Source: Clostridiaceae bacterium
GTDB taxonomy: Bacteria > Bacillota > Clostridia > DSM-8532
Length of the DNA stretch: 64,000 nucleotides
Direction: 5' to 3'
NCBI GenBank assembly: GCA_012521105.1
Contig: JAAYNA010000084.1
Span: 1 to 64,000 of the forward strand
The notes under the pieces were generated by a model. It saw nothing but the letters and a program-made list of their open reading frames with translations, did no database searches and had not been told where the DNA came from. A program made the translations under genes and the position numbers. Below, piece after piece: positions 7,188 through 64,000 of the stretch. Position 1 is the stretch's first letter. Each line of letters opens with the position of its first letter.

Positions 7188-8576
7188 TTGAACGAAGCAT
7201 TGAAATTATATAAAGAGAAAATCAGTAGAAAAAGGGCTGCTGTTCTTGGTTTTGGAGTAAGCAACAGACCCCTGGCAAAAACAATAGCTAAATGGGGAGC
7301 TGATGTAACAGTCTTTGACAGAAAAAATGAAGGAGATTTTCCGGATCTTTCAGAATATAAAGAGATTGGCATTAAGTTTTCTCTTGGTCAGAGATACTTA
7401 GATAACCTTAAAGGTTTTGATGTGATCTTTCGAACTCCGGGCATGCACTTTGATATTCCTGAAATTCAACGGGAGTTGGCTGATGGAGCCGAACTTACAT
7501 CAGAGATGGAAGTATTTATGAAAATATGTCCTGCCAAGATATATGCTGTTACCGGAAGTGACGGCAAAACCACCACAACAACACTAATTTACGAAATGTT
7601 AAAACAGGAAGGTTATAATTGCTTTTTAGGCGGAAACATAGGTACTCCGTTAATTGATAAAGTTGAAGAAATAGATGTTAACGACAGAGTAGTATTGGAA
7701 CTTTCAAGCTTCCAGCTATTAACCATGAAAAACAGTCCCGATGTAGCTGTAATTTCAAACCTTTCACCCAATCATCTTGATATACATAAAACTATGGAAG
7801 AATATATAGATGCAAAAAAGAACATATACAGATATCAGACAGATAAAGACAGAGTTGTGATAAATTACGACAACCCGATAACAAGAAGCTTTATACCCGA
7901 GGTGAAGGGAAGGCTGATATTATTCAGCATAAAAGAAGAGTGTACAACCGGAACATTTTTGAAAGGAAATCTCATTATTTGCAGGGAAGGCGGTATGGAG
8001 AAGGAAATTATGCCCATTGAAGATATAAAACTTCCTGGCATGCATAATGTAGAAAATTATCTTGCGGCTATATCAGCAGTAATGCCTGAAGTAAGTAATG
8101 AATCCATTGTTAACGTAGCAAAGAATTTTTCAGGTGTTGAACACCGAAACGAATTTGTAAGAACTGTAAATGGTGTATCCTTCTACAATGATTCAATCGG
8201 TTCAAGCCCCACACGTACCGCAGCAACATTAAAATCCTTCAAAAAAAAGGTTATCTTGATCGCTGGAGGCTATGATAAGAAACTCTGTTACGATGAGCTT
8301 GGTGAAACTATTCACAAATATGTAAAATTAATGGTGCTTATGGGGGATACTGCAGATAAAATTGAAAAGGCTTACAAAAATTATGCAAGAAAAGCAAATG
8401 TCGAACCGCTTCCGGTAGTCAGGGTCAGGAATATGGAGGATGCGTTGAATTCAGCTTATCGTCTGGCCCAAAGTGGTGACATTGTAGTCCTTTCACCTGC
8501 AAGCGCAAGCTTTGACCTGTATTCGAATTTTATGGAAAGAGGAAATCATTTTAAGGAGTTGGTTCATCAACTATAG
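7188..8576 (+). CDS. murD: UDP-N-acetylmuramoyl-L-alanine--D-glutamate ligase
   Basis: Adds D-glutamate to UDP-MurNAc-L-Ala in cytoplasmic peptidoglycan precursor synthesis, using ATP. The 462-aa length is typical. An N-terminal UDP-binding Rossmann domain (VLGFGVSNRPLAK near residue 20) is followed by the Mur ligase ATP site GSDGKTTTT near 123, GGNIGTPL, LELSSFQL, the SNLSPNHLDIH motif near 190, and GVEHRNEF near 320. Start: TTG at 7188 with AAGGTGG seven bases upstream. Unlike in many bacteria the gene is not in a division/cell-wall cluster; it stands alone in front of the MoxR operon and has its own promoter. Confidence 0.96.
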   Translation: MNEALKLYKEKISRKRAAVLGFGVSNRPLAKTIAKWGADVTVFDRKNEGDFPDLSEYKEIGIKFSLGQRYLDNLKGFDVIFRTPGMHFDIPEIQRELADGAELTSEMEVFMKICPAKIYAVTGSDGKTTTTTLIYEMLKQEGYNCFLGGNIGTPLIDKVEEIDVNDRVVLELSSFQLLTMKNSPDVAVISNLSPNHLDIHKTMEEYIDAKKNIYRYQTDKDRVVINYDNPITRSFIPEVKGRLILFSIKEECTTGTFLKGNLIICREGGMEKEIMPIEDIKLPGMHNVENYLAAISAVMPEVSNESIVNVAKNFSGVEHRNEFVRTVNGVSFYNDSIGSSPTRTAATLKSFKKKVILIAGGYDKKLCYDELGETIHKYVKLMVLMGDTADKIEKAYKNYARKANVEPLPVVRVRNMEDALNSAYRLAQSGDIVVLSPASASFDLYSNFMERGNHFKELVHQL

Positions 8577-30591: not shown

Positions 30592-30645
30592 AAAAATACT
30601 AAGGTATAATATGGTTACCAGATATATTATATATCTGGTAACCAT
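30582..30645 (+). promoter_or_regulatory. Promoter-like element abutting a 35-base perfect palindrome
   Basis: TTGCTT (30582-30587), 17-base spacer and TATAAT (30605-30610) are followed without a gap by a perfect inverted repeat: 30611-30627 pairs with 30629-30645 over 17 bp with one central base. The predicted transcription start falls inside the palindrome, the place expected for an operator. Alternatively the palindrome is a second terminator: a six-T run follows nine bases later. The next gene starts at 30889. Confidence 0.5.
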
Positions 30646-32674: not shown

Positions 32675-33894
32675 TTGGGCTCCTCCATATTTTTCTTTTT
32701 CATCATTGCCTGAACTTTTACAGGCAGACCAAACAAGTTAATAAAACCTTCCGCGTCCTTTTGATTATAAACATCGTCTTCTCCGAAGGTGCATAATTCC
32801 TCGTCGAACAGTGAATATGGTGAAGTAGTTCCTGCAGGTATGATATTTCCCTTATACAGTTTAAGTTTTACAGTGCCTGTCACATTCCTCTGTGTAACAT
32901 CAACAAAAGCTGAAAGAGCTTCACGCAGAGGAGTAAACCATTGTCCATAGTAAACAAGCTCAGCGAAGCGATGGGATATAATATCCTTATAGTGGAGAGT
33001 ATCCCTGTCCAGACACAAAAGCTCAAGTTCGCGGTGGGCAGCATATAAAATAGTGCCCCCAGGAGTTTCATATACACCACGGGATTTCATTCCCACAAGA
33101 CGGTTTTCAACGATATCTATAATACCAATTCCATTTTCCCCGCCGATTTTATTTAATTTCATAATAAGGTCAACGGGTTCTAGTTTTTCTCGGTTTATTG
33201 CAACAGGTATACCCTGTTCAAAAGTAATTTCAATGTATGTTGGCTTATCTGGTGCCTTTTCGGGTGTAACAGAAAGCTTTAATATATTGTCATATAATGG
33301 TTCCAATGAAGGATCCTCAAGTTCGGAACCTTCATGACTTAAATGCCACAGATTTCTGTCACGGCTGTAATTATCCTTTTTTGTAACAGGAACAGGGATA
33401 TTTCTCTTCATGGCATAATCAATTGCATCTTCTCTGGAGCGGATGTCCCAAATTCTCCACGGAGCAATAATCTTCATCTCGGGTGCAAGTGCCTTAACTG
33501 TAAGTTCAAAACGAACCTGATCATTTCCTTTTCCGGTGCAACCGTGGGCAATAGCGACAGCCCCCTCTTTTTTTGCAATCTCAACTAACCTTTTTGCTAT
33601 TATAGGCCTGGCAAAAGATGTACCCAAAAGATATTTCCCTTCGTATACGGCCCCTGCCTTTAAAGTGGGGAAAATATACTGGGTAACAAATTCTTCTTTT
33701 AAATCCTCTATGTATAATTTGGAAGCACCTGTTTTTATTGCTTTTTCGTGTAGCGAATCAAGCTCTTCTCCCTGTCCTACATCAGCGGCCATAGCAATTA
33801 CCTCATAGTTGTAATTCTCCTTTAACCAGGGAATAATAATAGAAGTGTCAAGCCCGCCCGAATAGGCCAGTACAACTTTTTCCTTTTTACCCAT
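32671..33894 (-). CDS. argG: Argininosuccinate synthase
   Basis: Joins citrulline and aspartate with ATP to argininosuccinate. The 407-aa protein begins [18 protein letters not shown], with the ATP pyrophosphatase P-loop SGGLDTS, and has [15 protein letters not shown] near residues 112-126 that binds citrulline and aspartate, then SREDAIDYA and the conserved YETPGGT region. I start at ATG 33894 (GGAGC nine bases upstream) rather than the in-frame ATG 33909, which overlaps that site. First gene of the argGH operon; the promoter carries an ARG-box-like element. Other arginine genes are not in the window. Confidence 0.97.
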
Positions 33895-56165: not shown

Positions 56166-56200
56166 AAATGCAAGAAGCGTAATTTACGCTTCTTGCATTT
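56166..56200 (+). terminator. 35-base perfect palindrome after rny
   Basis: AAATGCAAGAAGCGTAA (56166-56182) pairs with 56184-56200 over 17 bp with a single central base; in RNA the loop would open to three or more bases. Only four T follow. It ends 17 bases before the ymdB start codon, so it may partly terminate rny transcripts or tune ymdB translation. Confidence 0.6.
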
Positions 56201-61499: not shown

Positions 61500-61590
61500 T
61501 GTTAAAGAGTTGTTATAGACGCTTGAAGATATCATGAAACAAGTAGCATGATTCATGTTTAATCTCAGTATTAAAAGTATGAATAAAGGT

Positions 61591-61617
61591 ATCCGCCATC
61601 TGTTACAGGTGGCGGAT
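61591..61617 (+). terminator. Hairpin after the exoribonuclease gene
   Basis: A 12-bp stem (61591-61602 with 61606-61617, ATCCGCCATCTG/CAGGTGGCGGAT, one G-T pair) with loop TTA. No strong T run follows, so termination is likely but not certain. Confidence 0.55.
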
Positions 61618-61676
61618 ATCTGTTTCCCGCAAAAGAAAGTTAAGCCATTTTTTAGTATTAAAAAGTAAGAAAACTC

Positions 61677-61704
61677 TTGCAATATATAAATAATTTGCTA
61701 TAAT
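61677..61704 (+). promoter_or_regulatory. Promoter of metA
   Basis: TTGCAA (61677-61682), 16-base spacer, TATAAT (61699-61704). No S-box or T-box leader was seen between it and the start codon at 61756. Confidence 0.7.
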
Positions 61705-61726
61705 CTATACCAAATTATTTATATAT
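61682..61726. repeat. Inverted repeat enclosing the metA -10 box, candidate operator
   Basis: ATATATAAATAATTTG (61682-61697) and CAAATTATTTATATAT (61711-61726) are perfect 16-bp inverted copies separated by 13 bases. The -10 box lies in the spacer and the predicted start of transcription falls at the right arm. Placement is that of a repressor operator; Rrf2 regulators are encoded two genes downstream. Confidence 0.65.
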
Positions 61727-61755
61727 GAATAGTAATAATTAAGGAGTTGTAAAAA

Positions 61756-62679
61756 ATGCCTATAAATATACCAGACAACTTGCCAGCCTACGAGATTCTT
61801 ACCAGTGAGAATATTTTTGTGATGACTGAAGAAAGAGCCATTCATCAGGACATCCGACCCTTGAGGATCGCAATCTTCAATATCATGCCCACAAAGATTG
61901 TGACCGAAACCCAGTTGCTCAGATTAGTAGGAAATACTCCTCTACAGGTTGATATTGTTCTTCTGCATCCAAGAACATACATATCAAAACATACTCCAAT
62001 AGAGCATATGAGAACTTTCTACAAAACCTTTGATGATGTGAAGGATGAAAAATTTGATGGAATGATAATTACGGGCGCCCCTGTGGAACATATGGCTTTT
62101 GAAGATGTGGATTATTGGGAAGAGCTGAAAAAAATAATGGACTGGAGCAAAAAACATGTTTACTCAGTAATGTATATTTGCTGGGCTGCCCAGGCGGGCC
62201 TTTACCACTTCTATAATATACCTAAATATCCGCTGCCCGAGAAGCTTTTTGGGGTATTTGAGCACACTGTTACGGTAAAGAACGTAAAACTTTTAAGAGG
62301 GTTTGATGATGTGTTTTATGTTCCGCATTCGAGGCATTCGGAAGTACGCAGGGAAGATATTGAAAAAGTTCCAGAACTGGAAATCCTGGCAGAATCAGCC
62401 GAAGCAGGGGTTTATATAATCAGATCCAGGGATGATCGACAAATTTTTGTTACCGGACATTCTGAATATGATCCTCTTACGCTGAAAACCGAATATGATC
62501 GGGATGTTGCAAAAGGGTTGGAAATAAAGATACCAAAGAACTATTTCCCTGATGATGATCCTACAAAGCCACCGGTAACAAAATGGAGAGGACACGCTAA
62601 TTTGCTGTTTTCTAACTGGTTGAATTATTATGTATATCAGGAGACACCATATAATCTTGATGAGTTGAATGGCTATTGA
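61756..62679 (+). CDS. metA: Homoserine O-acetyltransferase (MetA family)
   Basis: Acylates homoserine as the first committed step to methionine. The 307-aa protein has the catalytic Cys142 ([10 protein letters not shown]), His235 and Glu237 (TGHSEYDP) of the MetA fold. Residue 111 is glutamate ([12 protein letters not shown]), which in characterised MetA proteins marks acetyl-CoA use, whereas glycine marks succinyl-CoA. This agrees with the O-acetylhomoserine sulfhydrylase gene downstream, so I call it an acetyltransferase despite the traditional succinyltransferase name. AAGGAG precedes the ATG. The promoter lies in a 16-bp dyad. Confidence 0.95.
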
Positions 62680-62720: not shown

Positions 62721-63170
62721 ATGAAAATATCAACCAGAGGACAATACGGTCTTGAAGCTCTTATATATCTTGCGCTTAATTCGTCAGTTGAACCGGTAAG
62801 TATAAAAAATATTGCTCAGTATTGCGGTATGTCTGAAGCTTACATACTCCAAATATTTCTTGTGTTACGAAGAGCAGGAATAGTATCCAGTATAAGGGGT
62901 GCTCAGGGCGGATACATGCTTTCACGCGAGCCTTCCGAAATTAGTGTTAAAGAGATTCTTGAAATACTGGAAGGGCCTTTAGCGCTGGTTGAGTGTATTG
63001 TTGAAGAATGCGAAGAGCCATGCATCCGTTATGAAATGTGTTCTACACGTTTTTTATGGGAGAAGATCAGAGAAAGGCTGGATTCTCTTGCCAGTTCTAT
63101 CACTCTTGCCGATCTTGTAGAACATTTTCGTACTCTTGATGCAATGCAAAATCCTGATTATTGCATTTAG
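62721..63170 (+). CDS. Rrf2 family regulator with cysteine cluster
   Basis: Transcription factor with an N-terminal winged helix (MKISTRGQYGLEALIYLAL, then the wing GAQGGYML). The 149-aa protein has cysteines at 92, 97, 101 and 107 (LVECIVEECEEPCIRYEMC), close to the three-cysteine [2Fe-2S] or [4Fe-4S] ligand sets of IscR (92/98/104) and NsrR/RirA, so it probably senses iron-sulfur status or redox. AAAGGGGG precedes the ATG; the ORF could be read from 62676 but without a site. It lies 41 bases after metA and 48 before a second Rrf2 gene. Confidence 0.88.
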   Translation: MKISTRGQYGLEALIYLALNSSVEPVSIKNIAQYCGMSEAYILQIFLVLRRAGIVSSIRGAQGGYMLSREPSEISVKEILEILEGPLALVECIVEECEEPCIRYEMCSTRFLWEKIRERLDSLASSITLADLVEHFRTLDAMQNPDYCI

Positions 63171-63218: not shown

Positions 63219-63659
63219 ATGAAGATCTCTACGAAGGGCAGATATGGTCTTAGGGCAATGGTGGATCTGGCAGTCTTCTCAGGTGGTGAACATGTATCGT
63301 TAAGCAGTATTGCAGAAAGGCAGATGATATCAGTCAATTACCTGGAACAGGTTTTTTCGGTGCTTAGAAAGGCAGGTCTTGTAAGGAGCATAAAAGGTGC
63401 CCAGGGGGGCTATACATTAACGGATGAACCATCAAATATTTATGTTGGAAGTATACTCCGTGTCTTAGAGGGAGAGTTATCGGTTATTGAATTTGATAAT
63501 TCAGAGTGCAGAAATATGATTCAAGCTTGTCTTAAAGATATGGTATGGGACAGGATGAACGAATGCCTGAATGAGATGGTTGACTCTATCACTCTTGAAG
63601 ATCTTGCAAATGATTACAGAAGGTTAAATGGCTTTGATGCCATTATGTATTATATATAA
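63219..63659 (+). CDS. Rrf2 family regulator without iron-sulfur triad (CymR-like)
   Basis: Second Rrf2 regulator, 146 aa, with the same winged-helix start (MKISTKGRYGLRAMVDLAVF) and wing (GAQGGYTL). Cysteines lie at 97, 104 and 116, with spacing unlike iron-sulfur Rrf2 proteins. It resembles CymR of Bacillus, the repressor of cysteine and methionine uptake and synthesis genes, and its position in front of O-acetylhomoserine sulfhydrylase supports that; the identity is inferred. CGGAAGGGGG precedes the ATG. Duplication of the neighbouring gene is a likely origin. Confidence 0.87.
   Translation: MKISTKGRYGLRAMVDLAVFSGGEHVSLSSIAERQMISVNYLEQVFSVLRKAGLVRSIKGAQGGYTLTDEPSNIYVGSILRVLEGELSVIEFDNSECRNMIQACLKDMVWDRMNECLNEMVDSITLEDLANDYRRLNGFDAIMYYI

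Positions 63660-64000
<341 letters not shown>

Follow-up and report, generated by a model that had tools for sequence, protein, structure and literature searches.

The window, by which the whole 64,000-nucleotide stretch of DNA analysed here is meant, carries at its end a run of forward-strand genes that starts with metA (61756–62679), which encodes a homoserine O-acetyltransferase of the acetyl type (NF047918, 516.9 bits against a cut-off of 460.5). It is followed by rrfA (62721–63170), encoding an Rrf2 regulator with a C-x8-C-x5-C motif (PF02082, 128.4 bits, cut-off 30), by rrfB (63219–63659), encoding a CymR-like Rrf2 regulator without cluster ligands (PF02082, 124.4 bits, cut-off 30), and by metY (63699–64000), for an O-acetylhomoserine sulfhydrylase, which continues beyond the window end. 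A cysK gene lies after metY, outside the window (locus L141, about position 65075 on the contig). An earlier, sequence-only reading had named metA, two Rrf2 genes and the start of metY, and the profile scores confirm this gene content. Its statement that no S-box riboswitch is visible agrees with an Rfam scan of the window, which returned one tRNA only and no riboswitch, including no SAM riboswitch in the metA leader. A 17-bp stem at 61587–61621, 88% complementary and terminator-like, follows a yhaM-like gene and separates that gene from the metA promoter.

What kind of regulators are encoded by the twin genes? Both products exceed the TIGR00738 cut-off, which places them in the Rrf2 superfamily, and they are 44% identical to each other. 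Alignment bears out the earlier description of four clustered cysteines in RrfA and no Fe-S spacing in RrfB, with the qualification that the fourth RrfA cysteine is not conserved among the aligned sequences. Three cysteines are found in all nine distinct RrfA sequences (C-x8-C-x5-C in eight and C-x9-C-x5-C in the ninth, from genome G022), and the triad is missing from every RrfB row; the alignment left out rrfA of loci L018, L024 and L025, where the start pattern was missed, and counted L055 and L162, which repeat L010 and L029, once. By these three putative ligands RrfA resembles IscR of the T. potens type, since they align with the three serines of 4cic, the nearest solved structure to RrfA, which we take to be T. 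potens IscR with its ligand cysteines replaced. Unlike IscR, however, rrfA has no isc or suf genes beside it, the gene neighbours of rrfA and rrfB being metA, metY and cysK. RrfB has 4cic and 2y75 as its nearest solved structures and resembles CymR (2y75), which it also matches in having an Rrf2 fold devoid of Fe-S ligand cysteines. Neither protein reaches an equivalog cut-off, either for CymR (NF047409, cut-off 195 bits; RrfB 138.7, RrfA 123.8) or for IscR (TIGR02010, cut-off 207.55 bits; RrfA 102.3, RrfB 118.4). Passages of PMC5411485 describe CymR as lacking a cofactor and many Rrf2 proteins as holding clusters through three cysteines, and a passage of PMC9973013 predicts cluster binding by M. 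xanthus RisR via C92, C102 and C108, a spacing of x9/x5.

The metA promoter has a -35-like hexamer TTGCAA (61677–61682, forward strand) and, 16 bp from it, a -10 hexamer TATAAT (61699–61704, forward strand), both assigned by sequence. In the form TATAATCTATACC the -10 is kept in g1, the genus of the window, and in most g3 metA promoters, and the -35 position reads TTGGCA, TTGCCA or TTGCAA in the g3, g4 and g7 relatives. The TATAAT lies in the 13-nt spacer of a perfect inverted repeat with 16-bp arms at 61682–61697 and 61711–61726, exactly as the sequence-only reading had placed arms, spacer and hexamer; when one mismatch is allowed, the repeat has 21-bp arms (20/21 complementary) around a 3-nt loop. 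This inverted repeat is real and beyond chance: it is one of only three in the window with perfect arms of at least 12 bp and a loop of at most 20 nt, nothing of that kind arose when the window was shuffled five times under a Markov model, and 3000 shufflings of the region upstream of metA yielded arms of at least 16 bp in 0 cases and of at least 14 bp in 1. An RNA hairpin formed by the repeat was considered and rejected, because, from the position of the -10, the transcription start would be expected at the right arm or within it.

A fundamental question is whether the repeat itself is the regulatory element. A matrix was learned de novo from 34 rrfB, rrfC and cysK promoters, with no metA promoter in the set (L157, whose start was not found, and L159, L160, L162 and L164, where rrfB is internal to an operon, were excluded), and the resulting motif, CATAtTAAACATATATGAAaaaTA, is present in 32 of them, with 19.6 bits of information and a weak dyad. 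The top site of this matrix in the 64-kb window is CAAATTATTTATATATGAATAGTA at 61711–61734 on the forward strand, a candidate CymR-type Rrf2 operator of 23.8 bits (17.8 bits at the same place on the opposite strand), hereafter the box. Excluding genus g1 from training left it at 23.2 bits, with the small circularity that the sites for that matrix had been chosen using the full one. The second-best separate site in the window, 15.1 bits at 33698, falls within argG and was taken as chance. The box consists of the right arm (61711–61726) plus 8 bp past it, starts 7 bp after TATAAT, covers the predicted transcription start and has its dyad axis at 61723.5, which is 20 bp from the axis of the inverted repeat. 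It recurs downstream of the metA -10 as CAAAGTAATTCTATAGGAGTT in g3, CACAGAATTTCTATATGAATAG in g4 and ATGAGTAAATCTATAGGAATT in g2, and in g7 the metA box, CATAGTAAATTTATAGGAATT, sits upstream of the -35, and a weaker second copy follows the -10. A first consensus built on the relatives' metA promoters, CCNAGTAAATCTATAGGAATT, gave nothing useful in the window's own genome (G000), because the box there has drifted to TATTTATATATGAA. Judged by sequence, the right arm makes up two thirds of a box, of which the left arm repeats a part in inverted orientation. What is conserved is the box, which the repeat overlaps; the repeat itself is not the conserved switch.

How closely does the box follow the Rrf2 genes among relatives? 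The family search covered 32 genomes, 29 of them with metA, and the family includes Thermoclostridium caenicola (genus g7; L056, NZ_FQZP01000065.1); the metA scan left out L032, where the gene start is missing, and L034, a second fragment of the same gene. The pair rrfA-rrfB lies directly behind metA in G000, G024, G018 and G022 and after a gap of ~0.8 kb in G015 and G016. Other arrangements are rrfA-rrfB-metY (L147), rrfA-rrfB-cysK (L159, L160), rrfB-metY and rrfB-mnmA, and twin Rrf2 genes thereby occur beside metA, metY or cysK in several genera. A site of at least 8 bits is present in 14 of the family's 28 metA upstream regions; in genus g2 it is found at 3/3 loci with an adjacent rrfA versus 0/10 without (Fisher P 0.0035), and family-wide at 8/9 with an adjacent gene versus 6/19 without (P 0.013), the six being metA promoters that carry the box with no rrf2 gene adjacent. 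G022 has metA-rrfA-rrfB-metY yet no recognisable box upstream of metA (best score -0.8 bits), and the metA promoter of T. caenicola (L013) scores below 0 bits, though its congeners carry sites. Among 80 named metA loci taken as an outgroup, the core AGTAAATCTATAGGAATT was found at up to 4 mismatches only in L055, a member of the same family, and Rrf2 genes near metA only in L055, L058, L062 and L063. A T-box leader lies just after metA in six g2 loci (L017, L019, L021, L023, L028 and L035), all of them without an Rrf2 box at metA.

Beyond metA, the box lies directly after the -10 of the family's rrfB-metY and rrfB-mnmA operons, and the same holds for cysK and the divergent rrfC. Its presence at cysK of G000 and of many relatives would match the sharing of an operator by cysK that characterizes CymR; the cysK of G000, missed by the start pattern and hence not in the matrix set, was scored afterwards at 25.9 bits. 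The pattern CATANTATTTATATATGAA, composed when the rrfC and metA boxes were both already known, matches rrfC in G000 with 0 mismatches, metA with 1 and all others with 3, and at 3 mismatches its 24 matches are no excess over the 27 of a reversed control. A cysK-type pattern at up to 2 mismatches matches nothing in G000 but cysK and a peptidase gene, both on contig C53, and the two patterns together at that limit find only metA, rrfC, cysK and the one peptidase gene, all but metA on C53. Over the 32 genomes the cysK-type pattern has 43 matches versus 13 for its reversed control, and of the 30 matches inspected 17 precede cysK, 1 precedes a PLP gene of Cys/Met metabolism, and the others are mixed or intragenic. 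Because the box recurs at the family's rrf2, cysK and rrfB-metY promoters, an Rrf2-type sulfur regulator is likely at metA; in this the sequence-only reading, which had thought control by a protein linking sulfur amino acid synthesis to Fe-S or cysteine status plausible, is partly right, while its choice of the palindrome as operator is not supported. The peptidase-like gene (L140, G000:C53; box at 8353–8376, 24.8 bits), with an ABC substrate-binding protein gene farther downstream, is a candidate member of the sulfur regulon. At six g2 loci (L148, L151, L152, L154, L156 and L158) rrfB, with the box at its promoter, is followed by mnmA, for a tRNA 2-thiouridylase, and tRNA thiolation may be part of the same regulon. 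A fourth Rrf2 gene (L139, G000:C193, 5846–6247) lies directly behind cysN-like sulfate activation genes; no box of at least 11 bits occurs across the 12-kb stretch around it, so its product is probably of another specificity.

We consider it likely that the metA promoter is the target of a CymR-type Rrf2 repressor that acts via the box at 61711–61734. The arrangement metA-rrfA-rrfB-metY-cysK is best read as an operon that regulates itself and belongs to a CymR-type Rrf2 regulon; its genes would be co-transcribed. Since the metA box has its counterpart at relatives' cysteine-synthase genes, a repressor of the cysteine type (Rrf2/CymR-like) is probable here. An Rrf2 dimer would bind the roughly 24-bp degenerate dyad and repress metA, and because the box starts so close behind TATAAT and covers the predicted transcription start, RNA polymerase should be blocked. 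The operon would in this way encode its own regulators and respond to cysteine or O-acetylserine, a signal that CysK might mediate as in Bacillus CymR, and repression would be released at cysteine shortage, by analogy with what part of PMC3828012 describes for CymR-CysK. Input of Fe-S status to metA through RrfA is possible.

If the box is the operator, what is the left arm (61682–61697)? Among 19 family metA promoters with TATAAT, the arm-to-arm match is 16/16 in the window, 15/16 in the congener G024 and 2–9/16 in the other 17. The left arm is thus lineage-restricted: neither a second congener, G026, whose metA promoter retains TATAATCTATACCAAATTATTTAT, nor any other genus has it, whereas the right element is kept. 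The sequence-only reading had named conservation of the dyad before metA of relatives as its test and a search for further dyads in the genome as a check; only G000 and one congener carry the dyad, which by that test is refuted, and the 37-bp dyad has no second copy at up to 3 mismatches in G000 (194 contigs, 98.6% complete), which therefore holds no dyad regulon. Nor are the two arms half-sites of one operator, because the left arm is identical to the box over 16 positions yet scores only 6.5 bits, and because it is absent in G026 and other genera whereas the conserved box is the right arm plus 8 bp. The explanation to which we give somewhat less than an even chance is that the perfect repeat is a functionless mutational product, in which a quasi-palindrome (the -10 plus CTATA by the box) was perfected by template switching. 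A shorter quasi-palindrome around TATAATCTATA in G026 and g3, together with the low score of the left arm as a box, is consistent with this origin. However, the left arm is 15/16 identical between G000 and G024, whereas the 4-fold sites of metA are identical at 56/104 (54%), a difference with P 0.0007 at the observed 4-fold rate and 0.026 if 70% background identity is assumed; the left arm is for this reason not simply neutral in these two genomes, and its conservation in two diverged species suggests constraint or repeated correction. An alternative hypothesis, which we hold only tentatively and regard as less likely than not, is that the left arm works as an accessory operator, an inverted second box that would let two Rrf2 dimers flank the -10. 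It repeats, in inverted orientation, positions 1 to 16 of the box, worth 14.6 of the box's 23.8 bits, and metA has two boxes in G026 (the second downstream) and in some g7 species (upstream of the -35) as well; missing from the copy, however, is the GAATA end (61727–61731 in the box), and with it the AA and the most strongly conserved G that come next in the box, and the left arm of G024 scores below 6 bits. The inverted repeat would accordingly be seen as specific to one lineage, with part of the box copied in inverted orientation into the -35/-10 spacer, and as an accessory site at most.

The CymR-type repressor that we favor at the box need not be encoded by the twin genes. It could be RrfC, encoded beside cysK, that reads the metA box, with RrfA and RrfB regulating something else or only modulating, and we regard this as a possibility that falls well short of probable. 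G026 has lost rrfA and rrfB and retains a metA box of 22.2 bits along with RrfC, its only other Rrf2 gene lying behind cysN, so that the box may be read by a protein other than the twins; four g7 genomes likewise have RrfC and lack RrfB, and three of them have a metA site of at least 8 bits. On the other hand, in g3 and g4 the twins and the box occur together in genomes where no RrfC was found at E<=1e-30, and the box is also present at rrfB promoters. Because the box is kept in G026, with RrfC and without the twins, and in g3 and g4, with the twins and without RrfC, it is probably readable by either type. An unlikely elaboration is a two-input switch in which RrfA would report Fe-S status and RrfB cysteine or O-acetylserine at the same box, as homodimers or a heterodimer, and the inverted partial copy would let two dimers close the metA promoter; if true, methionine synthesis would depend on the supply of Fe-S and of cysteine together. 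Very improbable, in spite of perfect arms beyond chance and a left arm better conserved between G000 and G024 than 4-fold sites, is the reading of the inverted repeat as the operator proper, with a regulator that has its two half-sites in the 16-bp arms and clamps the -10, since G026 and all other genera have the right element without the left arm, the dyad has no second copy in the genome, and the cysK, rrfC and rrfB promoters have the box with no such repeat around the -10.

In Firmicutes, RNA switches are the best-known control of methionine genes, and S-box and T-box elements, which serve the same physiological task, are mentioned for them in part of PMC2940859. Here, in contrast, no such element precedes metA in the window or in the 28 family loci scanned, where no riboswitch was found at metA, and the T-boxes of g2 lie after metA. 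The closer likeness is to CymR of Bacillus subtilis and Staphylococcus aureus, which passages of PMC3828012 and PMC2940859 describe as an Rrf2-family repressor of the cysteine regulon that acts with CysK. Shared features would be the ligand-free RrfB, predicted repression with cysK among the predicted targets, a degenerate AT-rich box (a likeness of general character and not of motif-to-motif comparison) and a CysK encoded next to the operon, whose partnership is proposed by analogy; unlike in the CymR regulon, the predicted control extends to metA-metY, the acetylhomoserine route, and RrfB stays below the CymR equivalog cut-off. The same two sources, in part, link the Clostridium Rrf2 regulators of IscR/CymR type CAC2236, CAC1675 and cpe1786 to cysK or Fe-S genes and predict CymR-like boxes for CAC2236 and CAC1675. 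Those are single genes, whereas rrfA-rrfB stand in tandem within a methionine operon, and among the publications that a literature search partly covered, none dealt with a metA operon holding twin Rrf2 genes. That Rrf2 proteins control sulfur genes is already known; less expected is a metA operon with two such genes in it. The acetylhomoserine route has a candidate protein operator of the cysteine-regulon type at its first gene, and the operon is accompanied by two Rrf2 paralogues, of which only one has Fe-S ligands. An explicit box and a candidate regulon are now testable in a little-studied family, and the locus illustrates that a conspicuous palindrome can mislead on the location of an operator. 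Elsewhere in the window, perfect 17-bp inverted repeats with a 1-nt loop lie at 30611–30645 (ATGGTTACCAGATATAT) and, in a short intergenic gap between rny-like and ymdB-like genes, at 56166–56200 (AAATGCAAGAAGCGTAA).
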